From positions 1-64,000 of the forward strand of contig JAJDCQ010000039.1 of assembly GCA_029260755.1 (NCBI GenBank): 64,000 nucleotides of DNA, written 5' to 3'. Below the pieces are notes generated by a model. It did no database searches. It worked only from the letters and a program-made list of their open reading frames with translations, and was not told the origin of the DNA. Positions 36,364 to 51,372 of this stretch are shown here, one piece after another. The number at the start of each line of letters is the position of its first letter. The first letter of the stretch is position 1. The position numbers and the translations under genes are program-made. The DNA is from Planctomycetota bacterium. GTDB lineage: Bacteria; Planctomycetota; J058; JAJDCQ01.

Positions 36364-37998
36364 ATGACACGCCGCGGCTCATCATCCCTTCCAGTCATTG
36401 CGACGCTCGCCGTCGCGCTCGTCGCCCTCGCGACCGGCTGCCCGAGCACGCCGGATCCGGCGCCGCCGGATCCGACCCCGATCGTGCCCCCGTTGCCGCC
36501 GCTCGCGGTGCGGGTGCTCCACTTCCCGGGCAGCCCGCTCTCGGGGCCGGTCGATGGGTTCGACCCGGTCGGGAAGCCGGGCGAGGACGACGCGCTCGCG
36601 GTGCTCGCCGTCGTGTGGGTGCTCGAGCATCCGGTCGACGACCGCCTGCCGGCGCTGTCGGCGTCCGCGCGGGTCGTCCTGCGGGCCGACGTCGGCCATC
36701 CGCTGGCGCAGCCCCCGCGGGCGACGCGCCACGCTCGCTACGAGGCGCTGCAGGACGCGGCCGCGATGGCCGACGCGGTGGCCGTCGGGGAGCTCGGCCC
36801 GGCGCGCGAGCTGGTCGTGCGGCGCGGCGCCCTGCTCCGCGGGACGACGGTCGCCTTCGAGATCGGCGAGCGCGAGGGCGAGGTCGACCCGACCTCGGGT
36901 GCGTCGTCCGGCGAGGGCGGGGCCTCGGATGCGCCGGCCGGCTCCGCGCTCGTCCTCGGCGACCCGAGCAAGGCGGGGCAGCGGATCACCGTCGCCGTCC
37001 ACCGCCCGGCGCACGACGTCGACGGTCGCGCGATCGGGATCGGGATCACCCTGAGCGGGCCGTCCCTGCCCGACGAGCTCCCCGCCCGCCCCGCCCACGA
37101 GGGCGACCGCGTGCGCCTCGACCCGCGGTCGGCGATCCTCGAGAGCGCGCCGCGTGAGATCGTCCTCACGCGCCCGATCGGCGACGCGAGCGGCGCCGCC
37201 GTCGCGATCCCGTCGACGTTCCCCTGCGCTCCTGACACGACGATCCTCGTCGTCGTCGGCATCGGCGTGCAGCCGCTTCCCGGCGAGCCGGGACACGAGG
37301 ACTGGGCGCCCGTCCTCGCGGACTGCCGGACGGAGCTCGTCCGGCGCGGCGCGCGCGCGACGATGCGCCGGCGCGCCGCGGAGCGCGGCACCGTCACCGA
37401 GGCGCGAATCGATCTCGGCGCCCTCGCCGCGACCGAGAGCCCGCGGCGGGCGCTCTTCGGCCTGGCCCGGTCGACCGGCGCCACCCTCGTCGAGGAGGTC
37501 GCCCTCACCGCCGGCGACGAGATCATCCGCGACGCCGCCGACCGAGTCGTGGAGGCGGTCGCGGAGCGCCCGCCAGCGTCGGACGCCGCCGCGCGCTGGA
37601 CGCTCGAGCGCGAGACGATCGCGGCGCTGGCGACCGCCTCGTCCTCCGAGGACGCCGAGCAGTCCGCGTCGGCCCGCGCGGTGTTGATTCGCCACACCGG
37701 CGGCGTCGGCCTCCGGACGGTCACCCTGACCGAGCTCCTCCTCGATGGCGACGAGGCCGCCACGAGGGGCGAGCCACCCGACCTCGGGGAGCTCCTGATC
37801 GCCGCCAACCGCGACCTGCTCGCGGACGGGTCGCCGGCCGTGCGCGTTCGCGCTCACGAGTGGCTCCTCGTCCGCGACGTGGCGACCGAAGGATTCGACC
37901 CGCTCGCCTCGCCCGAGGCCCGGCGCACCGCGCTCGCGAAGCCCGGCGCCGCCGTCGCCGCCCCGACCGACGGACCGACCGAAGGGGGCGCGCCGTGA
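36364..37998 (+). CDS. Hypothetical lipoprotein
   Basis: 544 residues. The signal sequence ends in a lipobox (VALVALATGC, Cys about 26) followed by a Pro/Asp-rich spacer, so it should be lipid-anchored in a membrane. The mature chain mixes beta-rich sequence with a late region containing RRALFGLARSTGATLVEEVALTAGDEIIRDAADRVVEAVAER. No family is recognised. The stop overlaps the start of the giant DUF748-type gene by 4 bases (GTGA), so the two proteins are coupled and may work together at the envelope. Confidence 0.75.
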   Translation: MTRRGSSSLPVIATLAVALVALATGCPSTPDPAPPDPTPIVPPLPPLAVRVLHFPGSPLSGPVDGFDPVGKPGEDDALAVLAVVWVLEHPVDDRLPALSASARVVLRADVGHPLAQPPRATRHARYEALQDAAAMADAVAVGELGPARELVVRRGALLRGTTVAFEIGEREGEVDPTSGASSGEGGASDAPAGSALVLGDPSKAGQRITVAVHRPAHDVDGRAIGIGITLSGPSLPDELPARPAHEGDRVRLDPRSAILESAPREIVLTRPIGDASGAAVAIPSTFPCAPDTTILVVVGIGVQPLPGEPGHEDWAPVLADCRTELVRRGARATMRRRAAERGTVTEARIDLGALAATESPRRALFGLARSTGATLVEEVALTAGDEIIRDAADRVVEAVAERPPASDAAARWTLERETIAALATASSSEDAEQSASARAVLIRHTGGVGLRTVTLTELLLDGDEAATRGEPPDLGELLIAANRDLLADGSPAVRVRAHEWLLVRDVATEGFDPLASPEARRTALAKPGAAVAAPTDGPTEGGAP

Positions 37999-40900
37999 GC
38001 GAGGCGAGCCCCACCGCCGTGCCCGCCGCGCCCGCCACGCCCGCCGCGCCGGTCCCGCGCCCGCGCCGTCGCTGGGGACGCAGGATCCTCCTCGGGTTCG
38101 TCGTGTCGATCCTGGTCGGCCGCGTCGCCCTCGCGATGGCGATCGGTCCGGTCGCATCGAGCGTCGCCGCCAGCCTCGGCCTCGACCTCGGCTGGGGTCG
38201 ACTCCATCTCCGGATCCTCGGCGGCTCGGTCGAGCTCGACGACCTCGTCGTCGCGCTGGCTCCCGAGGATGAGGAGACCCCGCCCGGCGCCGATGGTGCG
38301 CCGGCGTCGCCGCTCCTGAAGATCCGGCACGTCCGGGCGGACCTCGCGGTCCTGCAGCTCTTCACCGGTCGGGTGGTCGTCCGGAACGTCGAGCTCGAGG
38401 GCGTCCGCCTCGAGGTCACCCGCGCCGCCGACGGGTCGTTGCCCGCCCTCGAGCACATCCTGAAGCGCGTCGAGGCGATGGCCGAGCCCGACGTGGACTC
38501 CGACGCGTCCGACGCCGGGACGGCGAGCGACGGCGACGACGGACCGGATGACGAAGGGACCTGGCAGCAGGCGTGGGACGCCGCCCGCGACATCGTCGGG
38601 CTGCCCGTCTCGGTCGAGCGCGTCGCCGTTCGCGATGTGGCGATCGTGCTCCACGATGCGTCGGTCGACCCACCGCTCTCGCTCACCGTCGCGATCGAGG
38701 CGTCGGTCTGGGACCTGCTGACCTCGGCGGACGAGACCGGCGAGGTCGAGCTCGCCGTCTTCGCCCCGCCCGCGGTCGAGCACCTCCACGCGACCGGTCA
38801 CCTCCGGGTGGACCGCCGGAGCCGGACGGCCGGGTTCGTCGGCACGTTCGGTCTCACGGGGTTGAACCCGGCCGCGCTCGAGGGCCATCTCGGATCGATC
38901 GGGCTCGCCGCGACCGGAGAGCGGGTCGACGCACGCGGCCGGCTCGAGCTGACGGCGCGGCCAGAGCTCTCGGCGCAGTACGGCCTGTCGGGCGAGCTCA
39001 CCGTCAACGACCTGACCCTCCGCACGGGCGGGACCGAGACGGCCGCCCTCGAGCTCTTCCGCGTCGTCGTCCGGGCGCTCCGGCGGACCGGTATCGATGT
39101 CGACCGCGTCGACGTCGACGGCGCCCGCGTGGCCGCGTCGCGCGACGCCGAGGGAGGCATCCGGTTCGCCGGCATCCGCGTGCCACCGTCCTCCGAGGAC
39201 GACGAGCGGTCGACCCAGGACGTCGGAGCCGACGACGCTGGGGCCGAAGACGGTGCCGAAGACGGTGGAGGCGACCCCGGCCACGATGAGCCGGTCGAGG
39301 ACGAGGCGCCCGGCGCGCTCACCCTCGGACCGGAGGCGACCGGCGCGCGCGTCCGGCTGCGCTGCGACCGGGTGACGGTCCGGCGGGTGGAGGCGCGCTT
39401 CGTCGACGCGGCCGCCGACCCGGACGGCCCGCCGGTGGAGCTCGCCGTCCGCGTCCCCGAGATGCGGGTGCTCGACCTCCACTTCGATCCCGAGCGGGTC
39501 GACGCGCCGCTCGAGCTCGACGCGCTCGTCGAGCTGCCCGGCGTCATCGAGTCGATCGCGATCGAGGGGAGCGCGGTCCCGTTCGCGCCGCGCCGCACCC
39601 TCACCGGGAAGGTCCGGGCCGGCGGGATCACCGCGGCGCGCCTGGCGCCGTATCTCCGGGCCGCGGGCCTCGATCCGGAGCTGACCGACGGCCGGGCCGA
39701 GCTCGGCCTGACCGCGGCGGCCTGGGCCGAGGACGGCGCGCTCGTCGCCGAGACGCGCCTCGAGGACGTCGCGTTCGCCGACGGCGAGCTGCACCACGTC
39801 GGCGTCGGCCGGGTCACGGTCGGCGGCGTGCGCCTCGATCCCGAGGCCGGCCTCCTCTCGGTCGGCTCGATCGAGGTGAACGCGCCGCGGGCGCGGCTGC
39901 ACCGGGACGCCTCCGGCGTCCTCCACGCGTTCGGGATCGCCGTCGTCGGCACCGACGACGAGGAGGAGCCGGCCGACGAGGAGGCGGAAGCCCCGCCGGC
40001 TGACTCGGCGGATGCGGAATCGGAGGCGCCGCCGGCCCTGCGGCGGATCGAGCTCGAGAGCCTCGTCGTCCGGAACGCCCGGATCGCGATCGAGGACGAG
40101 GCGGTCGGCGAGGAGCCGCTCCGCCTCGCGGTCGAGGGGATCCGGGTCAACGTGCGGGACCTCATCGTGCCCCTCGAGGGGGAGGCCCCCGAGCCGGCGC
40201 CCCTCTCGATTCGCGCGACGATTCCCGGGATCGCCGGTCAGATCACCGCGCGAGGTCAGCTCGTGGCGGCGCCGGCCAACCCGAGCGTCGAGCTCGCGGT
40301 CGACGTCACCGGCGTCACGGTCGAGGCGCTCACGCCGTACCTCGCCCCCCTCGGCATCGAGCCCGACCTCGAGGACGGACGCTTCGCGTTGCGGCTCTCC
40401 GCGCAGGCGCGCGTCGGCGAGGACGACGAGCTCCACGCGGGGCTGAGCATCCCGACGCTTCGCTTCACCGACGGCGAGCAGGAGCTCGCCGCGCTCGAGG
40501 GGCTCGTCGTCGACGACGTCGCCGTCGGCGCGGACGACGAGGGCGTCTCGATCGGCGTCGGCCGGGTGACGCTCGCGCGCGCCGCGCTGCCGGTCTGGCG
40601 GATCGACGGAGACGAGGTCCGCGCCCTCGGGTTCCGGGTCTCGCCGCCCGAGGAGTCGGCCAGCGATGCGACGGAGGCTGCCGAGGACGGCGACGCCTCC
40701 GGGCCCGGTGCCGGTCGCGGTGCCGACCGCGATGGCGACGGGGCGCCGGCGGGCGGGCCGGACTTCGAGGCGCTCGGCGCCCTGCCGAAGCTGCACGTCG
40801 GGAGGCTCGCCGTCGAGACCGTCGAGCTCACGTTCACCGACGCGACGTTCGAAGAGCCGGTCGTCCTGCCGTTCGCGATGAGCGCGTCGCTCGACGCGCT

Positions 40901-43900
40901 CACGATCGGGCCGGCGCCGAGGGACGGCCCGCCTGCGAGCTCGACGTTCCGCGCGACGATGGCCGCCGGCGACCTCATCGAAGCCGCCACCGTCGAGGGC
41001 GAGCTCTCGATCGCGACCCACCTCGGCTTCGGCCTCGCCGGGAGCGTCCGCGCGACGACGAAGGCGACCGGCGTCGATGCGAAGACGCTCGCGCCCTACC
41101 TCGCCCTCGCCGGCGTCGAGCCGACGCTCGAGAACGGCGTCGTCGAGGGGGGCGTCCGCCTCGACGCGGCGCTGATGGGCTCCTCGATCCGGGTCGACCT
41201 CGGCCTCGACGATGCGGTCGTCCGGGACGGCGAGCACGAGCTGCTCGGGCTCACCCGGGCGACCCTCGAGGACGTCTCGGTCGCATCGGATCGGATCGCC
41301 GTCGGGGCCGTGACCGTGACCGCGCCCCGGATCGCGGTGGCGCGGACGGCCGACGGCGGGATCGAGGCGATCGGGATCCGGCTGCCGCCAGAGGCGCCGC
41401 CCGAGGCGGAGGCGGCCAGGGTCCGGCTCCCCGTGCCGGTGCTCCCGTTCGGGCCGTGGCCGCCGCCGCCGTGGCCCGAGCCGGATGCGGGCGTGGTCGG
41501 CGACGACTGGGCGGACCCGGAGCTGGCGGCGGGGTCGGGCGTCGACTCCGACGCGGAGCCGGCCGCGTTGCCCGTCCTCGCGCTCGGGCGGCTGGCGATC
41601 GAGGCCGCCGAGCTGACGTGGCAGGACGAAGGGGTTGGCCCGCCGTTTCGCGCCACGGTGCGGGCCGCGCTCACGATCACCGACCTCGAGGTCGGCCCCG
41701 AGGAGGGACCGCCCGCGTCGATCGTGGCGGTCGTGACGAGCCCCGGCCTGATCGGCGAGGCGCGCCTCGAGGGCCAGATCGCGGGCCACCTCGAGGGCGG
41801 CACCGCTCTGCTGACCGCGGACGTCCGGGGGATCCGGGGCGAGGCGCTCGCCCCCTACCTACCGTCCGGCACGCGCGTCACCCTGGTCGACGGACGCGCC
41901 GGCGCCCGGATCGCGGCGGCGGCGCGGGAGCTGGCGACCGGCGACTGGACGGCCGCGGTCGACGTGCGCCAGATCGCGCTCCGCGACGGCGACGGCCCGC
42001 CGCTCGCGTCGATCGACCGCGCGGGCGTCCTCGTCGCGAGGATCGATCCGACCGGCGCGGCCGTCGAGATCGATCGGGTCTACGTTCACGGCATCCGCGC
42101 CGAGGCCGAGCGCCGGACCGATGGCGCGATCCTCGCGGGCGGCCTCGCCCTCGGTCCGGGCGTCACCCCCGGCGCCCCCTCGTCCCTCGTGGCGGGCGGC
42201 CTGACCCTCGTCGCGCAACGGCCGCCGGCGGCGCCGCCGCCGCCGACCCCCGCGGAGGTCGAGGCGGCGACGAAGCGTCGCGCCATCGGCGACGGCGGGC
42301 TGCCGCTCGTGACCCTCCGGAAGCTCGAGGTCACCGCGCCGCGGATCGCCGTCCACGACCGGACGCGCGCGCCGATCGAGATCCGGGGCTTCGTCCTCCG
42401 GAACCGGGTGCCGTTCGAGATGCTGGGCGAGGCGCCGGCCGAGCACCCCGCGTTCGAGCTCGACGCGAGCCTCGAGATCGCCCCGATCGCGAGCTCCGTC
42501 ACCTTCCGGGTCCGTGCCGCCCCGTTCGCCCTCGACCCCGAGGTCACCGTCGACGTCGACACCCGCGGGATCCGCGCGGCGGGGATCGCGGCCGCCCTCC
42601 CCGAGCTCGAGCCGATCCTCGACGGTCGCGGGCTCGCGGACGGTCGCTTCGTCGCGCAGCTCCACGCGAGGCTCCGCGCCGACCGCCGGAGCAGCCTCGA
42701 CTTCGACCTCTCGCGCGGGTTCGGCGCCGAGGTGCGGATCGAGAAGGTCGCCCTGCGCGAGGCGGGCTCGGAGACGATCCTCGCGGGGGTCGACTCGGTC
42801 GACGTGGACCTCGCGCGGATGGATCCGGCGAGCGGGCTCATCCACATCCGGAGCATCGAGATCGAACGTCCGATCGCCCGGGTGCGGTGGGACGAGGCGA
42901 GCGGCCTCGTCGCGGCCGGGCTCGGGATCCGCACGCCCGAGCCCGAGCCCGAGCCGGCCGAGGACGCCCCGGACGAAGCCTCCGACGTGGCGCCCGACGA
43001 GGCGGCCGACGACGCCGCGGAGGTGCCTCCGCCGGAGCCCGAGCTCGAGCCCGCCGAGGACGCGGGCGCGCCGCCCGAGCTGCGGATCGACCGGATCTCG
43101 ATCGACGGGATCGACGTCGAGGTCGTCGACGCGCGGGCCGATCCGCCGTTCCGCCTTCCGGTCACCGGCCTCGAGATGAGCGTCCGGAACCTGAGCACGA
43201 TCGGGCTGTTCGCGGGACAGCCGGTCAGCTTCGACATGCTCGTCACCGCCGGCGACGTCGACCTGCCCAGGCGCGGCGGCGACGACTCGCTGATTCCGGG
43301 GACGGCGCTCCTCGCCGACGCCGTCGGGGCGATCGCGGGCGGGGAGGACGACGGCGAGGAGCTCGAGGCGCGGCCCGCGTTCGCCGAGATCGGGATGGTC
43401 GGCCGGATCGCGCTCGGGCCGACGCCCGATGGCGAGCTCACCTTCGGCCTCGTCGACTTCGACCTGAGCAACCTCCGGGGCATGCACAAGGTGACCGGCG
43501 TGACGATCCGCGACGGCCTCCTCGGCGTCTCGGCCGAGGCGCGCTTCGATCACGACGGGTCGCTCGAGACCTCGACCGAGGTGGTCCTGACCGACCTCTC
43601 GATGAAGGACAGCGACGAGGGGGCGATCGCCGACGCCCTCGGCCTCTCGGTCCCGCTCGACGCGGCGATCTTCGTGATCCGCGACGAGAACGGGACGATG
43701 AAGGTGCCATTCGACCTCACCCTGCCGTCGGAGGGGCTGTCGATGTCGCGGCTCACCGCCGCGGCCCTCAAGACGGTCGGCAGCGTCGTCGGTCGCGCGA
43801 TCGCTCGGTCGCCTCTGCGCGTCCTCGGCGGCGTGACCGACGTCGCCAAGGGGGTCGGCTCGTTCGTCCCCGGCAGCGAGGTGCTCTTCGGTGACGGGGG

Positions 43901-44528
43901 CGAGGAGACCGGCCCCGCGCTGGCTCGGCTCTCGTTCGCGGCCGGCAGCTCGATCCCGCTCCCGGATGCGGCGGCGCGCGACCGCCTCGCCGCGCTCGTC
44001 GCCGCGCTGGCCAACGATGACGACCTCGTCCTGATCGTCCGGCACGAGCTCGGTCGAGGCGACATCGAGGTCGCCAACCTCCTGGCGAACCCCGACGACG
44101 ACGACGCGCGGGCCGTCGCCGCGGGGCTGAGCGCTCGCCGGGCGACGCTGCTGCGCCGCCGGGCCGACATCGCCGCGACGGCCCGGACGACGATGCTGAC
44201 CGGCGACGACGCGGCGGTGGAGCGCGCGTGCGAGGCGCTCCGCGCTCACGACGCCGCGATCGGGCGGCTCGAGGAGCGGCTCGACGTCGTCTACGGGCTG
44301 CTCGCCGCCGGCGCCGAGCGCCGCGCCGACCGCCGCACGCGGGGGAGCGCGACCGGCCTGGCCAGGGCGCGGATGGACGCGGTGAGCGAGATCCTCGTCG
44401 AGCGCGGCCTCGATCCGAGCGCGCTCGAGGGCCGGGTCCGCCTGAGCCGGGCCCGCGCCCGGGGGGCGAGCGACTCCGAGACCGGCGTGATCGTCGTCGA
44501 GCCGGCGAAGCGGAAGACGCCCGGTTGA
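37995..44528 (+). CDS. Giant AsmA/DUF748-type envelope protein
   Basis: 2177 residues from GTG 37995. The N-terminus is a Pro/Ala-rich tail, then one membrane helix (RILLGFVVSILVGRVALAMAIG, about 30-52). The long periplasmic part has at least six similar units, each with a motif like APRIAVARTADGGIEAIGI (also RVAASRDAEGGIRFAGI and ARLHRDASGVLHAFGI) followed by an acidic linker, a DAxxxxPxxL strand and an (L/A)xPYLxxxGxxPxLxDGR element. The C-terminal 230 residues (RLSFAAGSSIPLPDAAARDRLAALVAAL, then coiled-coil-like helices) match the usual end of DUF748 proteins. AsmA-like repeats form lipid-carrying beta-grooves between membranes, so a role in lipid transport or outer membrane integrity is likely. 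Most DUF748 proteins are shorter. Confidence 0.75.
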   Translation: MSEASPTAVPAAPATPAAPVPRPRRRWGRRILLGFVVSILVGRVALAMAIGPVASSVAASLGLDLGWGRLHLRILGGSVELDDLVVALAPEDEETPPGADGAPASPLLKIRHVRADLAVLQLFTGRVVVRNVELEGVRLEVTRAADGSLPALEHILKRVEAMAEPDVDSDASDAGTASDGDDGPDDEGTWQQAWDAARDIVGLPVSVERVAVRDVAIVLHDASVDPPLSLTVAIEASVWDLLTSADETGEVELAVFAPPAVEHLHATGHLRVDRRSRTAGFVGTFGLTGLNPAALEGHLGSIGLAATGERVDARGRLELTARPELSAQYGLSGELTVNDLTLRTGGTETAALELFRVVVRALRRTGIDVDRVDVDGARVAASRDAEGGIRFAGIRVPPSSEDDERSTQDVGADDAGAEDGAEDGGGDPGHDEPVEDEAPGALTLGPEATGARVRLRCDRVTVRRVEARFVDAAADPDGPPVELAVRVPEMRVLDLHFDPERVDAPLELDALVELPGVIESIAIEGSAVPFAPRRTLTGKVRAGGITAARLAPYLRAAGLDPELTDGRAELGLTAAAWAEDGALVAETRLEDVAFADGELHHVGVGRVTVGGVRLDPEAGLLSVGSIEVNAPRARLHRDASGVLHAFGIAVVGTDDEEEPADEEAEAPPADSADAESEAPPALRRIELESLVVRNARIAIEDEAVGEEPLRLAVEGIRVNVRDLIVPLEGEAPEPAPLSIRATIPGIAGQITARGQLVAAPANPSVELAVDVTGVTVEALTPYLAPLGIEPDLEDGRFALRLSAQARVGEDDELHAGLSIPTLRFTDGEQELAALEGLVVDDVAVGADDEGVSIGVGRVTLARAALPVWRIDGDEVRALGFRVSPPEESASDATEAAEDGDASGPGAGRGADRDGDGAPAGGPDFEALGALPKLHVGRLAVETVELTFTDATFEEPVVLPFAMSASLDALTIGPAPRDGPPASSTFRATMAAGDLIEAATVEGELSIATHLGFGLAGSVRATTKATGVDAKTLAPYLALAGVEPTLENGVVEGGVRLDAALMGSSIRVDLGLDDAVVRDGEHELLGLTRATLEDVSVASDRIAVGAVTVTAPRIAVARTADGGIEAIGIRLPPEAPPEAEAARVRLPVPVLPFGPWPPPPWPEPDAGVVGDDWADPELAAGSGVDSDAEPAALPVLALGRLAIEAAELTWQDEGVGPPFRATVRAALTITDLEVGPEEGPPASIVAVVTSPGLIGEARLEGQIAGHLEGGTALLTADVRGIRGEALAPYLPSGTRVTLVDGRAGARIAAAARELATGDWTAAVDVRQIALRDGDGPPLASIDRAGVLVARIDPTGAAVEIDRVYVHGIRAEAERRTDGAILAGGLALGPGVTPGAPSSLVAGGLTLVAQRPPAAPPPPTPAEVEAATKRRAIGDGGLPLVTLRKLEVTAPRIAVHDRTRAPIEIRGFVLRNRVPFEMLGEAPAEHPAFELDASLEIAPIASSVTFRVRAAPFALDPEVTVDVDTRGIRAAGIAAALPELEPILDGRGLADGRFVAQLHARLRADRRSSLDFDLSRGFGAEVRIEKVALREAGSETILAGVDSVDVDLARMDPASGLIHIRSIEIERPIARVRWDEASGLVAAGLGIRTPEPEPEPAEDAPDEASDVAPDEAADDAAEVPPPEPELEPAEDAGAPPELRIDRISIDGIDVEVVDARADPPFRLPVTGLEMSVRNLSTIGLFAGQPVSFDMLVTAGDVDLPRRGGDDSLIPGTALLADAVGAIAGGEDDGEELEARPAFAEIGMVGRIALGPTPDGELTFGLVDFDLSNLRGMHKVTGVTIRDGLLGVSAEARFDHDGSLETSTEVVLTDLSMKDSDEGAIADALGLSVPLDAAIFVIRDENGTMKVPFDLTLPSEGLSMSRLTAAALKTVGSVVGRAIARSPLRVLGGVTDVAKGVGSFVPGSEVLFGDGGEETGPALARLSFAAGSSIPLPDAAARDRLAALVAALANDDDLVLIVRHELGRGDIEVANLLANPDDDDARAVAAGLSARRATLLRRRADIAATARTTMLTGDDAAVERACEALRAHDAAIGRLEERLDVVYGLLAAGAERRADRRTRGSATGLARARMDAVSEILVERGLDPSALEGRVRLSRARARGASDSETGVIVVEPAKRKTPG

Positions 44529-44606
44529 TTTCCTCCTAAGAGATCTCGCTCGGCTGCGACCTTGATTCGGGGACGAATTCCCAGGCCAAGCAGGGGAGAT
44601 CCGACG

Positions 44607-45680
44607 ATGAACCGCCGACCCACCATCCACCGAACCGCCATCCTCGCCATCGCGCTCGCCGGCGTCGGGCTCGCCTGCGCGGCCGCCTCGGCGCGAGGCG
44701 GCGAGGGCGCCCGCCGCGGCGACGCCGTCCCGGCCGGCAAGGCCGACCAGCTCGTCATCGCGCTCCACGCCACCGGGGTCGCGGTGATCGATGAGGCGGC
44801 CTCGATCCGCCGGGTCGAGAAGCTCATCGATCGTCTCGAGCTGAACCCGCCGAACATCGGCGCCGACTTCGCCGGGCTGCTCCAGTTCCGCCGGGACGGC
44901 GAGGTGATCGCGACCACCTCTTTCGTCGGCCGGATCGCGTTGCCGCGGAGCGATCGGCACCGGGCGTTCTTCGCCGAGCTCGACCGGCTGCTCGCCAAGC
45001 ACGGGGCGGACGCCGCCGGGCTCATCGATCAGCTCGAGAACGAGGACGACCAGATCCGCTACGCGGCGTCGAACGCGCTTCGATCCGTTCCCCGGGACGA
45101 GGTCGGCGCCGTCATCGCGGCGGCCGCGACGCTCCCACGGGCTGAGGTCCGGGCGAGCCTCTGCACCGCCCTCGGCGACCTCGCGAAGGCGCACGGCGAC
45201 CGCGACGGCTCGATCGTAGAGGCGCTCCGCCGCGCGGCCCGCGAGGACGACTCCGAGGTCAAGGACAGCGCCCTGAAGGCGCTCCTCGTCTTCGGCCGTG
45301 ACGCCGAGGACGCGCACCTCCATGCTCTGAGCAACCCCGACCCCGAGGTCCAGGAGACGGCCGCCTACTGCCTCTCCACGCTCGGAACGAAGGTGCCCGC
45401 GAAGCTGGTCGCCCCGCTCCTCGGCCAGAAGGACCGCAACTACCACTTCCACGCGATCGAGGCGCTGAAGACGACCGACGACCCCGAGGCCGCGCCGCTG
45501 CTGCTCGAGGTGGTGAAGGACGGGGACGACTACCACCACCGCCACAGCGCGGGGCAGATCCTGAACCGGCTGCTCGGAACGAGCGTCGACCTCGCCCCGT
45601 TCCGGACCGGCGGCACCTACGACCGGACCCGCCACGCCGCCGCCATCGCCACCTGGACCAAGGCCCTCCAGAACCGCTAG
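44607..45680 (+). CDS. Exported HEAT-repeat protein
   Basis: 357 residues from ATG 44607, which has AGGGGAG upstream. It has a signal peptide (AILAIALAGVGLACAAASA), possibly with a cysteine lipobox-like site (LACAA). An N-terminal alpha/beta segment (about 45-130) is followed by six or seven HEAT/armadillo-like repeats (about 140-330: LENEDDQIRYAASNALRSV, DDSEVKDSALKALLVFG, NPDPEVQETAAYCLSTLG). It is a probable periplasmic scaffold. It follows the DUF748 gene by 78 bases and may be co-transcribed. Confidence 0.8.
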   Translation: MNRRPTIHRTAILAIALAGVGLACAAASARGGEGARRGDAVPAGKADQLVIALHATGVAVIDEAASIRRVEKLIDRLELNPPNIGADFAGLLQFRRDGEVIATTSFVGRIALPRSDRHRAFFAELDRLLAKHGADAAGLIDQLENEDDQIRYAASNALRSVPRDEVGAVIAAAATLPRAEVRASLCTALGDLAKAHGDRDGSIVEALRRAAREDDSEVKDSALKALLVFGRDAEDAHLHALSNPDPEVQETAAYCLSTLGTKVPAKLVAPLLGQKDRNYHFHAIEALKTTDDPEAAPLLLEVVKDGDDYHHRHSAGQILNRLLGTSVDLAPFRTGGTYDRTRHAAAIATWTKALQNR

Positions 45681-45880: not shown

Positions 45881-46474
45881 ATGGACCCAGCCAGCGAGCA
45901 GCCCGAACTCGTTCGACGCGCCCGTGACGGCGACGTCGCCTCGTTCGAGGCGCTCGTCCGGGCGCACGAGCGCAGGATCTTCTGCGCGGCCTATCTGGTC
46001 ACCGGCGACCATCACGCCGCCGAGGACCTGGCGCAGGAGGTGTTCATGCGGGCGCACGCGTCTCTGAAGAGTCTCGAGGACGTCCACCGCTTCAGCGCGT
46101 GGCTCTCCTCGATCGCGCACAACACCCGGACCGACTGGGTGCGGCGTCGAGTCGCCCGGCCGAACGGCCACGCGAAGCCGCTCCCCGACGGCGGCGACGC
46201 CGACCCCGCGGCCCGCGGGAAGTCGCCGTCGGAGCGCCTCGCCACCGGCGAGGCGCGCGGCGCCGTCGCCTCGGCCGTCACCGACCTCCCCGACGGGCTC
46301 CGCCACGTCGTCGTCCTTCGCTACGTCGAGGGGCTCTCCTACGTCCAGATCGCGGGGATGCTCGACATCTCGCCGTCGTCGGTCGGCGAGCGCTTGCACC
46401 GGGCCCGCAAGAAGCTCTCCGAGGCGCTGGCCGGCCTGGCCGCGGACTCGGGTCGGATCGGAGGTGCGGCGTGA
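45881..46474 (+). CDS. ECF-family RNA polymerase sigma factor
   Basis: 197 residues. Region 2 lies at about 22-95 (FEALVRAHERRIFCAAYLVTGDHHAAEDLAQEVFMRAHASL...FSAWLSSIAHNTRTDWVRRR) and region 4 at about 130-185 (LPDGLRHVVVLRYVEGLSYVQIAGMLDISPSSVGERLHRARKKL). It is a typical ECF sigma factor that would recruit polymerase to a small set of promoters. Its stop overlaps the next start by 4 bases (GTGA). That next protein begins with an anti-sigma zinc finger, so it is the predicted regulator, and the regulon probably includes this operon. Confidence 0.93.
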   Translation: MDPASEQPELVRRARDGDVASFEALVRAHERRIFCAAYLVTGDHHAAEDLAQEVFMRAHASLKSLEDVHRFSAWLSSIAHNTRTDWVRRRVARPNGHAKPLPDGGDADPAARGKSPSERLATGEARGAVASAVTDLPDGLRHVVVLRYVEGLSYVQIAGMLDISPSSVGERLHRARKKLSEALAGLAADSGRIGGAA

Positions 46475-49400
46475 GCGCGACCATCTGCGAACGGACCGAG
46501 GAGCTGCTCAGCCGCGGCATCGACGGCGAGCTCTCGTGGGAAGATCAGAAGGCGGTCGAGGGGCACCTGCCGGGCTGCGAGCGGTGCCGCCAGACCAAGG
46601 CGCGGCTCGCGCGGACCGACCGCGTCCTGCGCGGCGTCCTCGAGGGGCTCGTGCCCGACGAGGGCTTCGCCGCGCGGACCGCGGCGGCGGCCGCCGCCCG
46701 GGGGGCGCCCGGCGGCGCGCCGGCGCCGGCGGTCGTTCCCGCGCGCCGCGGTGGCGTGAAGCGCTGGGCTCGACGGATCGCGATCGTCGCGGCGGTGCTC
46801 GCCGTCACGGTCGTCTCCTACTTCGGCATCCGCGAGTGGTCGCTCCGTCGCGCCGGGTCGCACTCGCCGACCGACCTCGTGTTCGCGTCGCCCGACCGCC
46901 TCGGGCCGGGCCTCGCCGCGCAGCTCCGGGTGCTCGTGCGCGACGCGTTCACCCTCGAGGGCGTCGCCTACGCCGAGGTGCGGGTCGACCTCGAGGATCG
47001 CGACGGCGAGGTCGTCGAGACGCTCGCCGAGGGGCAGACCGACACCGACGGGACGATCGTCGCCGACCTCTCGATCCCCGAGTCGGTGCCGGACGGGCGC
47101 TACACCCTCGTCGTGCGGAGCGCCGACGCCTCGGGCGAGGAGATCGTCCGCAGCAGCGTGCGGGTGGCGCGGCCCGTCCGCGTCCTCGTCACGAGCGACA
47201 AGCCGACCTACCAGCCGGGCCAGACGATTCACATCCGGGCGCTCGCGCTCCGCGCGACCGACCTCGCCCCGCGGGCCGGCCGCGAGGTCGTCTTCGAGGT
47301 CGAGGACGGCAAGGGCAACAAGGTCTTCCGCCGCGCGGAGACCGCGAGCGACTTCGGCGTCGCGAGCGCGGATCTCGAGCTCGCCGATGAGATCAACGAG
47401 GGGCGCTGGGTGCTCCGCGCCACCGTCGACGGCGTCTCGAGCGAGCGGACCGTCGAGGTCGAGCGCTACGTCCTGCCGAAGTTCGGCGTCGAGGTCGGGA
47501 CGACCCGCGGCTGGGCGCTCGTCGGCGAGACGGTCCGCGCCGAGATCGCCGCCCGCTACTTCTTCGGCAAGGCGGTCGCCGGCGGACGCTACGAGGCGCG
47601 CCTCGAGGCGTGGAGCGTCGACGGGTTCCGTCCGGTCGCGACGGCCACCGGACGGCTCGACGCCGCCGGCCGGAGCAGCTGCGAGCTGCCGGTCCCCGAG
47701 GTGCTCCACGGCATCCCGCTCGAGGATGGCCGGGCGCTGGCCCGCCTCGTCGTCGACGTCGTCGATGGGGCCGACCACCGCGAGTCGGCGGGCAAGAGCT
47801 TCCCGGTGGCGAAGGAGCCGCTCGTCATCGAGCTCATCGCCGACGGCACGGCCGCCCGCGGGCGCGACAACGGCTTCTTCGTCCTGACGAGCTACCCCGA
47901 CGGGACGCCGGCGGAGACGACCGGGACGGTCACCGGGACGCACGCGCCGGCCGAGGTCGCCTTCGAGACCTCGCCGCTCGGCGTGGCCGAGATTCGCTAC
48001 CCGATCGACGCCGCCTCGGATCTCCTCACCCTCTCGCTCGACGTGACGGCGCGCGACGCCGGCGGCGCGAGCGGCCAGGCTCGGTTCTGGGATCGCGAGC
48101 TGGTGCGGTGGAGCGAGGCGCTCGTCCTTCGGCTCGACGCCGCCGTCTACCGGGCGGGCGGCACCGTCTCGGCCGACGTCGTCGCCGGCGGGCCCGGGTC
48201 GGTCTACCTCGACCTCGTCCGCGACGGAACGACCCTCTTCACGACGCGGGTCGACGCCGATGCGAACGGCCGCGCCCGGTTCGACTTCGACCTGCCCGAC
48301 GACGTCTTCGGCACCCTCGGCGCCCGGGCGTGGCGCGTCCTCGCCGACGGGACGGTCGTGCGCCGCGTCCGGCCGGTCGTCGTCGCGCCGCCCGATGCGC
48401 TGGAGATCGAGCTCGACCTCGACCGGGACACCTACCGCCCCGGCGACGAGGCGACCCTCGATGTGACCGTCCGCGACCGCGACGGCGCGCCGCGGGCGGC
48501 GAGCGTGACGATCGCCGCCGTCGACGAGGCGGTCTTCGCGCGCACCGACAGCAAGCCCGGCCTCGAGCGGGTCTTCTTCGCCCTCGAGGAGGCGCTCCGC
48601 GAGCCGAAGTGGCAGATCAAGACGGCGCCGCCGATCACGCCGGCCGACCTCGTCCGGGCGGAGCGTCCGGGCGCGCTCGTGGGTTCGAGGTGGGGCGCGA
48701 CGCCCGAGGACGCGGACGCGTGGGTCCAGACGGCCGCGCGGGCCGCCCTTGCATCGCTCGCGGGCGAGATCAGCAGCGCCGAGAACGTGAACCTCCGCCG
48801 GAGCTATCCGAACAAGCTCGACGAGGCGCGCGACGCGCGACGGGATCGTCGACGCTCGTTCCACAAGTTCGAGAGGGTCGTCCTGGGCATCGCCGGCATC
48901 GTCGTCGCGATCGCGGTGTTGCTCGTGCCGTGGTTGCTGGTCGGGCTGGCGGCGCTCCGCGCCCGGCGCGGCGAGCGGGCGTTCTCGCTCCCGGCCGGGC
49001 TCGGCGCGCTCGGCGTGATGTTGCAGTGCTGCCTCCTCGGGTCGTTGCTGAGAGGGGGAGGGACGCTGGCAGGGACGTACAACATGGCCAACGACCGTGT
49101 CTTCGGTGGCGGCGCCGAGTGGGAGACCGGCGGCGAGGGCAGCGACTCGGGCGGCGGCGACGCCGGGCCCGGCGACAAGAGCGAGCACCTCGACGGCCCC
49201 GGCGGCGTCCGCGTCCGCGAGGACTTCCCCGAGACGCTCCTCTGGAAGCCCGCGGTGATCACCGACGACGATGGACGGGCGCGCCTCACCATCCCCCTCG
49301 CCGACTCGATCACGACCTGGCGCGTCTCGGCGCAGGCGGTGAGCCGGCGCGGCGAGCTCGGCGCGACGGTCGGTGGCATCCGCGTCTTCCAGGACTTCTT

Positions 49401-51372
49401 CGTCGACGTCGACGCGCCGGTCGCGCTGATCCGTGGCGACGTCGTCGAGGTGCCGGTCGCGGTTTACAACTACCTGAAGGAGCCCCAGACGGTCACCCTC
49501 ACGGTCGACGCGGGCGACGGCCTCGAGCTCGCCGGCCCCGGCGGCGGCGAGATCACCGTCGAGCTCGGCCCCGAGGACGTTCGCGCCGTCCGCATCCCGG
49601 TGCGGGCCACCGCCCTCGGCGCCGTCCCGATGACCGTCCACGCGAAGGGCTCGGCCGGCGCCGCCGACGCGATCCGCCGGCGGATCCGGGTCGAGCCCGA
49701 CGGCAAGCCGTTCCCGATCGCGGCGAGCGTCCCGCTGTCGGCGAGCGGGCAGAGCCGGACGATCGAGATCCCGGACGCCGCCGTCTCCGACGCGAGCGTC
49801 CTGGTCGCCCGCGTCTACGCGAGCGGGTTCGCCGAGGTCGTCGGCGGAATGGAGGGGCTCATCAAGGTCCCCTATGGCTGATTCGAGCAGACGACGTCCG
49901 TCACCTATCCGAACGTGCTCGCACTTCGGTATCTCAGGGAGACGGACGCGGCGACGCCGGAGGCGTCGCTCCAGTTCGAGCGGAACATCGCACTCGGTTA
50001 TCAGCGGCTCCTCACGTTCGAGGTCGACGGCGGCGGCTTCGACTGGTACGGCAAGGCGCCCGCGAACGTCCTCCTCACCGCCTACGGCCTCCTCCAGTTC
50101 GCCGACATGGCGACCGTCTGGCCGCAGGTCGAGCGGGCCGTGCTCCGGCGGAGCCGCGACTGGCTCGTGAGCCAGCAGGGCAGCGACGGGTCCTGGACCG
50201 ACCCGCGCTACGGCGGCGGGGCCGCGCGCGACGTCGCGACGACGGCGCTCGTCCTGCGCGCCCTCGCCGCGACCGGCCCGAGCGTGGACGGCGGCGGGCG
50301 GCCTCCGCAGCGCGTCGCGGACGCCCTCCGGCGGGCGCGGGCACTCCTCGTCGGCCGCGCGCCCGACGCGGACGACCCCTACGTCCTGTCGATGGCGGCG
50401 CTCGCGATCGCGGGGATGGATGGCGACGACGTGTTCGCGAGGCGGCTCGCCGAGAAGGCCTCGAGCCTCGGCGGCGAGGCTCCGGCCGATCCCGAGCATC
50501 TCGTCTGGGCGCCGGCCGGCCAGACCCTGTTCCATGGCTCCGGCCTGGCGGGCCAGCTCGAGACGACCGCGCTGACCGTCCGGGCGCTCCTCGCCACGAG
50601 GACCGAGAAGGGCCGGGCGGAGCGGGGGCTGCGGTTCATCGCCGCCAACCGCGACGAGCGTGGGTCGTGGCACTCGACCCAGGCGACCGTCCTCGCGATC
50701 CAGGCGCTCCTGCAGGGCCGGGGCGCGGGCGGCCTCGACGCCGACGCCAGCGTCGAGGTCCGGATCGGCGGGCGCCTCGTCGAGACGATCGCGCTCGATC
50801 CCGCGAACGCGGACGTCATCCGCCAGGTCGACCTCTCGCAGCACGTCGGTCCCGGCGCGAGCCAGGTCGACCTGGCGCTGGTCGGGCCGGGCGCCGCGGC
50901 GGGCGGCGGAGTGACGGTGCAGCTCGCCGGCCGCTACTACCTGCCCTGGGCGCAGGCGATCGCCGCGAGCGACCGCGAGCGCGCACCGATGACGGTCGCG
51001 GTCGCCTACGACCGGACGACGCTGGCGCAGGACGACTTCGTCGACTGCCACATCGAGATCGAGTACCTCGCGCCCGACCCGACGTTCATGGTGATCGTCG
51101 ACGTCGGCATCCCGCCCGGCTTCGCCGTCGACCGGGGCTCGCTCGCCGAGCTCGTCGGCAGCGGCGCGGTCGACCGGTTCGAGACGACCGGGCGGCAGGT
51201 GATCCTCTACCTCGGCGACATGCGTCGAGGGCGGCCGGTGACGCTCACCTACGCGCTCCGGGCGGTCTACCCGGTGCGGGCGAAGGCGCCCGGCGCGGTC
51301 GCCTACGAGTACTACACGCCGGAGCGGCGCGCCGAGGCGCCGCCCGTCGACATGGAGGTGACCGAACGATGA
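46471..51372 (+). CDS. Alpha-2-macroglobulin family protein with N-terminal anti-sigma zinc finger and TGA (selenocysteine) at the thioester cysteine
   Basis: Read through TGA 49879-49881 the protein has 1633 residues. Residues 1-55 form a ZAS zinc finger (H32, C36, C39). Membrane helix 1 is at about 101-121. MG-type domains follow (LVTSDKPTYQPGQTIHIRAL near 239), then helices 2 and 3 (about 802-826 and 835-860), a Gly/Asp-rich stretch, and the macroglobulin core (TTWRVSAQAVS near 948; FFVDVDAPVALIRGDVVEVPVAVYNYL). The thioester site reads P-Y-G-(TGA)-F-E-Q-T-T-S-V-T-Y-P-N; family members have Cys there, cross-linked to the Gln three residues later (Q1140). Downstream is a normal thioester/complement-like helical domain (LGYQRLLTFEVDGGGFDWYGKAP...DGSW) and receptor-binding-like C-terminus. 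Position 1137 is therefore probably selenocysteine. Without readthrough the product ends at 1136, before the trap chemistry. Confidence 0.85.
49879..49881 (+). other. In-frame TGA recoded as selenocysteine
   Basis: The codon for the thioester residue (residue 1137) is TGA. Homology continues directly on both sides in the same frame and no further stop occurs before 51370. The standard code is in use here, as many genes end in TGA, so general TGA reassignment is not an explanation. Selenocysteine insertion is the simplest reading; a base-calling error or a nonsense mutation is possible. Confidence 0.75.
49884..49929 (+). promoter_or_regulatory. Candidate bacterial SECIS hairpin region
   Basis: Immediately after the TGA two alternative hairpins can form. 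One pairs CGAGCA (49884-49889) with TGCTCG (49916-49921), with a small inner GACG/CGTC stem. The other pairs CCGAA (49909-49913) with TTCGG (49925-49929), extended by GT/AC past a bulged C, leaving an apical loop GCTCGC that starts with G about 35 bases from the TGA. Bacterial SECIS elements sit at this distance with a G at the loop start. No folding was computed. Confidence 0.4.

Follow-up and report, generated by a model that had tools for sequence, protein, structure and literature searches.

Analysis of a 64,000-nt window of a Planctomycetota bacterium genome (assembly GCA_029260755.1, contig JAJDCQ010000039.1, positions 1 to 64,000) revealed an alpha-2-macroglobulin gene (46471..51372, forward strand, GTG start, 1633 codons with its internal TGA counted as selenocysteine; Pfam and PDB sequence matches) in which codon 1137, at the position of the thioester cysteine, is TGA (49879..49881). 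Insertion of selenocysteine (Sec) at this codon is very likely, a selenoester between Sec1137 and Gln1140 (CAG, 49888..49890) is predicted from the conserved motif, and the reading as a whole is held with considerable confidence. An initial annotation made from the sequence had reported the motif P-Y-G-TGA-F-E-Q-T-T-S in an open frame, which was confirmed (V-P-Y-G-TGA-F-E-Q-T-T-S), and had taken the TGA for the thioester cysteine of C-x-E-Q, which is borne out by the alignment of codon 1137 with the thioester cysteine of complement C4-A (PDB sequence match) and by the invariance of cysteine in this column across 56 homologues. The Glu and Gln of the motif are kept in the window gene, the Gln being invariant in 57 alignment rows, and only the cysteine codon is replaced by TGA.

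The reading frame is open for 1136 codons from the GTG at 46471 to the TGA and for a further 496 codons after it (497 with the stop codon, itself a TGA at 51370-51372). Homology on both sides of the TGA, as also claimed initially, is evident from the order of Pfam domains, with zf-HC2, MG2 (47182..47433, residues 238-321, 97.5 bits), MG3, BRD and A2M (PF00207, 49234..49503, residues 922-1011, 83.1 bits) before the codon, the thioester domain TED (PF07678, 49837..50709, residues 1123-1413, 107.7 bits) across it and the receptor-binding domain A2M_recep (PF07677, 51085..51336, residues 1539-1622) downstream. When the part after the TGA was scored alone, TED and A2M_recep were still recognized, with 91.5 and 56.7 bits. 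Thus, the MG, A2M, TED and receptor-binding domains of the alpha-2-macroglobulin/C3 superfamily are all present in the gene, and codon 1137 combines the features that define a selenoprotein candidate, an in-frame UGA, homology on both sides and cysteine homologues at the site. No NCBIfam macroglobulin model matched the gene, which had zero NCBIfam matches at or above the cut-off. The protein-database entry for the gene (P0003) stops at residue 1136; ordinary gene prediction splits Sec macroglobulin genes in two.

Regarding recurrence in the phylum, 392 genomes were surveyed with a 200-residue TED query (E 1e-15 or better, at most 8 candidates scored per genome), which matched in 73 genomes and yielded 109 listed genes. 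Thirty-four of these, from 25 genomes, have exactly one in-frame stop, which is always TGA and always occupies the thioester codon, followed by F-E-Q, M-E-Q or, once, C-E-Q; the other 75 are free of stops, and neither TAA nor TAG was found in frame in any of the 109. At the order level (10 genomes), a genome of another family (G008) likewise has TGA at the thioester codon, in E-P-C-G-U-F-E-Q-T-S-S. The initial argument that a chance nonsense change would hardly strike this one codon is therefore strengthened, and the alignment of homologues shows the site to be TGA, TGC or TGT and never TAA or TAG.

A scan for the motif with TGA through a genome collection with one genome per species (84,980 species) returned 49 stretches, 41 of which match a profile built from cysteine homologues alone and are spread over 34 named genomes. 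The titles of these genomes include Planctomycetota (with Gemmatales, Ca. Kuenenia and Ca. Uabimicrobium), Chloroflexi/Anaerolineae, Ca. Riflebacteria and Deltaproteobacteria, together with one Bacillota, one proteobacterium and one unnamed bacterium; nearly all are metagenome-assembled genomes (MAGs), so that any single title may reflect a binning error. The remaining eight stretches (L057, L059, L064, L068, L069, L074, L094 and L096) were dropped as chance occurrences, being short or unrelated frames with no match to the cysteine-homologue profile (the frame of L059 contains no macroglobulin); SelA was found in 2 of their 8 genomes, and the L059 genome has no SelA and neither tRNA-Sec nor SelB above the cut-off. 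The survey and the scan overlap and were merged into 55 distinct TGA sites and 42 cysteine sites (38 TGC, 4 TGT), leaving out eight rows in which other codons stand at a stray G-x-x-E-Q that is not the thioester site. An additional TGA site outside the 55, missed by the script pattern, is L140 (position 1133), which reads G-U-C-E-Q, with a cysteine codon immediately after the TGA. The gene noted initially as an oddity thus turns out to be one member of a selenoprotein family that recurs in genomes labelled with different phylum names.

The TGA might instead be a nonsense mutation that has made a pseudogene, or a sequencing error for TGC or TGT, given that the window's genome is a 12.26-Mb draft in 276 contigs (87.7% complete) and that it also encodes a cysteine paralogue with TGT at the site (L030, contig C175 of genome G000). 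Such an origin is very improbable, since the same TGA occurs in the 34 listed genes of the survey and in 41 genes across the 34 named genomes, of which one is complete, with no TAA or TAG at the site, and since the frame after the TGA closes at 435-508 codons in all 44 of the 55 genes in which the stop is visible. Decay beyond the TGA was looked for in the homologues, and homology continues past the codon. Four TGA genes have short upstream frames; L095 and L109 among them look frameshifted, while L138 and L141, both of genome G020, appear to begin as short lipoproteins about 300 codons before the TGA, and their N-terminal half appears to be missing or encoded elsewhere.

A quick maximum-likelihood tree was built from 141 TED regions, 54 of them with TGA; on it the TGA label requires 9 changes, at least 4 of which are forced by well-supported branches. 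The window gene falls in an all-TGA group of 13 rows (Shimodaira-Hasegawa-like approximate likelihood ratio test, SH-aLRT, 98) with Planctomycetota and Riflebacteria, and the TGT paralogue (P-S-G-C-F-E-Q-T-S-S; 47% identity to the window protein over 380 query residues) stands among the cysteine rows. A stop codon kept over such distances beside cysteine relatives fits exchange between Sec and Cys and does not fit decay.

Regarding the machinery for Sec insertion, which the initial annotation had proposed to look for, the window's genome contains a tRNA-Sec (69.4 bits, above the cut-off; anticodon TCA according to ARAGORN) and encodes SelA (541 bits), SelB (335 bits) and SelD (343 bits), the last with a single in-frame TGA of its own in S-G-G-U-A-G-K-L. 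Of the 392 genomes of the phylum, 245 have SelA, and the share is higher among the 25 genomes that carry a TGA macroglobulin, 23 of which have it (P 0.001 versus the other 367 genomes); the two without SelA, G008 (67% complete) and G128 (59%), both have SelB above the cut-off. Among the named TGA genomes SelA is present in 31 of 34 and SelB in the remaining three, two of which also have a tRNA-Sec above the cut-off. Hence, every TGA genome examined carries SelA or SelB, with SelB looked up only in the window's own genome and under seven further handles, two of which (G128 and G393) give identical places and look like one genome. The complete genome of Candidatus Uabimicrobium amorphum (NZ_AP019860.1, L088) has SelA, SelB and tRNA-Sec.

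The inserted residue cannot be told from DNA alone; suppression or a changed code might place an amino acid other than Sec at the UGA, or the codon might serve as a deliberate stop that gives two products. This is the least probable of the alternatives, as the same macroglobulin gene ends in TGA, the in-frame TGA stands solely on the thioester codon in 34 genes, and both SelB and a tRNA-Sec with anticodon TCA are present. Nonsense mutation, sequencing error and code change were all rejected on account of recurrence at one codon and the lack of TAA or TAG, in favor of Sec insertion.

For the TGA genes as a set there is extra RNA structure directly past the TGA, unlike in the cysteine homologues. 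Against a null of synonymous codons drawn from each gene's own usage, the 60 nt past the codon had a mean z of -1.50 in the 55 TGA genes versus -0.45 in the 42 Cys genes (P 6e-4). In stretches of 24 codons, a length chosen after the result for the window gene at 23-24 codons was known, the mean z of the TGA genes was -1.35 directly past the TGA, -0.46 before it and +0.24 and +0.02 further on, compared with -0.37, -0.34, -0.50 and -0.51 for the same stretches in the Cys genes, in which structure thus also slightly exceeds the expectation from codon usage (mean z -0.45 and -0.37). The common rule for a bacterial selenocysteine insertion sequence (SECIS), as given in PMC13188914, requires a 3-9-nt loop that lies 16-37 nt past the UGA and has G in its first two positions; it was matched by 33 of 55 TGA genes (13.2 expected) and by 7 of 42 Cys genes (7.5 expected).

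A 6-bp hairpin is common to nine of nine thinned genes from genomes titled Chloroflexi, Bacillota and Deltaproteobacteria and near rows, where resampled codons reach 4 or fewer, and it recurs in three Riflebacteria genes, while three genes from the window's phylum form it with different letters. Its loop (GGU, GUC, GUU or GGC) starts 17 nt past the UGA, and SelD of the window's genome has a hairpin of this geometry as well (distance 17 nt, 6 bp, loop GUC); there the first 36 to 48 nt fold best into the hairpin and the best 54-nt fold includes it, longer stretches folding otherwise. All six pairs are formed in 21 of the 55 TGA genes (19 distinct); these were selected for the six pairs, so that their complete pairing is by choice and covariation is the evidence, with three pairs changing on both sides (16 cells) and a score of 0.413 versus at most 0.094 for slid partners. 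Two other measures of covariation were weaker, the number of pairs changed on both sides being reached by 24 of 500 shuffles and that of further pair types by 58 of 500. Groups were named following the tree, but the hairpin of group B had already been seen before that. In group C, 6 of 11 thinned genes share a different stem of longer range, against at most 4 under the null. Group A, the window's own, has a weak shared helix, stems of 5 and of 6 each occurring in 4 of its 9 thinned genes and stems of 7 in 3 of the 9 (P 0.35, 0.04 and 0.03 for stems 5, 6 and 7); the corresponding P values for the leftover group D are 0.38, 0.04 and 0.21. RNAalifold over all 55 TGA genes found no common structure.

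In the window mRNA itself, a possible SECIS is a long hairpin within 23 codons past the TGA (49892..49950, forward strand), which fails the common bacterial rule. The lowest third-base G+C over 23 codons in the gene is that of the TGA-containing stretch (0.74, TGA counted, versus 0.955), the next lowest elsewhere in the gene being 0.78. The hairpin and the low third-base G+C are suggestive only as signs of a SECIS, and for the first 52 nt counted from the TGA, folding is no stronger than in dinucleotide shuffles (z 0.08).

Several results weigh against Sec insertion in the window gene. Rfam detected no SECIS in 49700-50100; the window mRNA has no match to the SECIS rule and a z of +0.38 over 60 nt, and of the six pairs in the 17-nt hairpin it can form just three; the energy of the 49892-49950 hairpin (-27.0 kcal/mol, z -2.87 versus own-gene synonymous codons, 4 of 390 gene windows as low) was obtained for a length picked among 12. 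Furthermore, SelA is not significantly more frequent in TGA genomes (23/25) than in genomes with Cys macroglobulins only (37/48, P 0.20).

The thioester of C3, C4 and alpha-2-macroglobulin is a classic reactive bond of innate immunity. In C3 and the macroglobulins, the thioester between the Cys and Gln of C-x-E-Q is exposed upon bait cleavage and acylates the attacker; E. coli ECAM is a bacterial case (PMC3328433). SelB and a SECIS in the window mRNA would insert Sec at the UGA, and Sec1137 and Gln1140 would condense in the manner of the Cys and Gln of C3 and alpha-2-macroglobulin; cleavage of the bait region or another conformational change would then expose the selenoester, which would acylate the attacking protease or another nucleophile. 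The full-length protein would need selenium, synthesis otherwise halting at residue 1136. A study of model compounds indicates that selenoesters outpace thioesters with amines (about six-fold for one aryl pair) and that more activated selenoesters hydrolyse more (PMC7232547), and from this reactivity and hydrolysis a quicker but less stable trap is predicted.

Alternatively, Sec could be inserted but stay a free selenol that serves redox chemistry or binds metal, with no selenoester, and PMC13188914 states that a redox function is presumed for most catalogued selenoproteins. This is unlikely here, given that the partner Gln and the preceding Glu are kept behind all 34 TGAs, that there is no U-x-x-C pattern at the site, and that the site lies within a TED whose modelled fold matches C3, C5, A2ML1 and TEP1 (the structure model was consulted for the fold alone). 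With Gln1140 kept, Sec1137 would instead form the selenoester.

Compared with A2M, A2ML1, C3, C4, TEP1 and the bacterial ECAM/YfhM, the window gene differs in having TGA as its thioester cysteine codon. It resembles catalogued prokaryotic selenoproteins (FdhA, SelD, Prx, GrdA) in the UGA at a Cys position, the Cys homologues and the Sec machinery, and its relatives have SECIS-like hairpins as those do; unlike them, its protein is not an oxidoreductase fold. The initial annotation knew of no Sec macroglobulin, and indeed no macroglobulin or thioester protein is listed in the tables of 87 (PMC9312934) and 119 (PMC13188914) prokaryotic selenoprotein families, and the words macroglobulin and thioester are absent from the main texts of these two papers and of the deep-Sep paper (PMC12013277). 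The families of Haft and Tolstoy (2025), as given in rows of a review table, include no macroglobulin among those rows. Among the titles listed by literature searches none concerned a Sec macroglobulin, the candidate table of PMC4807772 (planctomycete selenoproteins) lying outside the comparison, and Deng et al. (2026; candidate selenoproteins of groundwater MAGs) could include such proteins, because many carriers found here are groundwater MAGs. The window gene is accordingly filed as a new selenoprotein variant within a known protein family. If it is real, the selenoester would be a natural bond of a new kind; a natural swap of Sec for Cys at that atom would allow thioester and selenoester to be compared directly in one fold, and Sec at a macroglobulin trap would extend the use of Sec beyond redox catalysis.

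Regarding the N-terminal part, the window protein adds to the A2M/C3 superfamily architecture a zinc finger of the anti-sigma type (zf-HC2, 46486..46590, forward strand, residues 6-40, 38.6 bits) and membrane segments, among them a hydrophobic segment identified with a hydropathy script, which is a likely membrane anchor (46774..46830, residues 102-120). An extracytoplasmic function (ECF) sigma factor is encoded at 45881-46474, in a gene overlapping the macroglobulin start; together with the zinc finger and the hydrophobic segment behind it, this suggests a membrane-anchored sensor form, and a sigma/anti-sigma-macroglobulin pair (45881-46590) sensing proteases is possible. Taken more broadly, selenium-armed macroglobulins are probably widespread in bacteria, the Sec-Gln selenoester serving as a covalent trap in a non-redox use of Sec with several gains or losses across phyla, and those forms that have a zinc finger and lie next to an ECF sigma factor may couple protease attack to transcription.

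Two hydrophobic segments (residues 810-856, 48898-49038) lie in the expected bait region (about residues 690-909), and two to eight such segments were found roughly at the bait region in 14 of 16 Cys homologues checked (not in P0004 and P0009). Upstream of the ECF sigma factor gene are genes for a HEAT-repeat protein (44562-45680) and, on the forward strand, for a DUF748 (AsmA-like) protein of 2222 residues (37860-44528).
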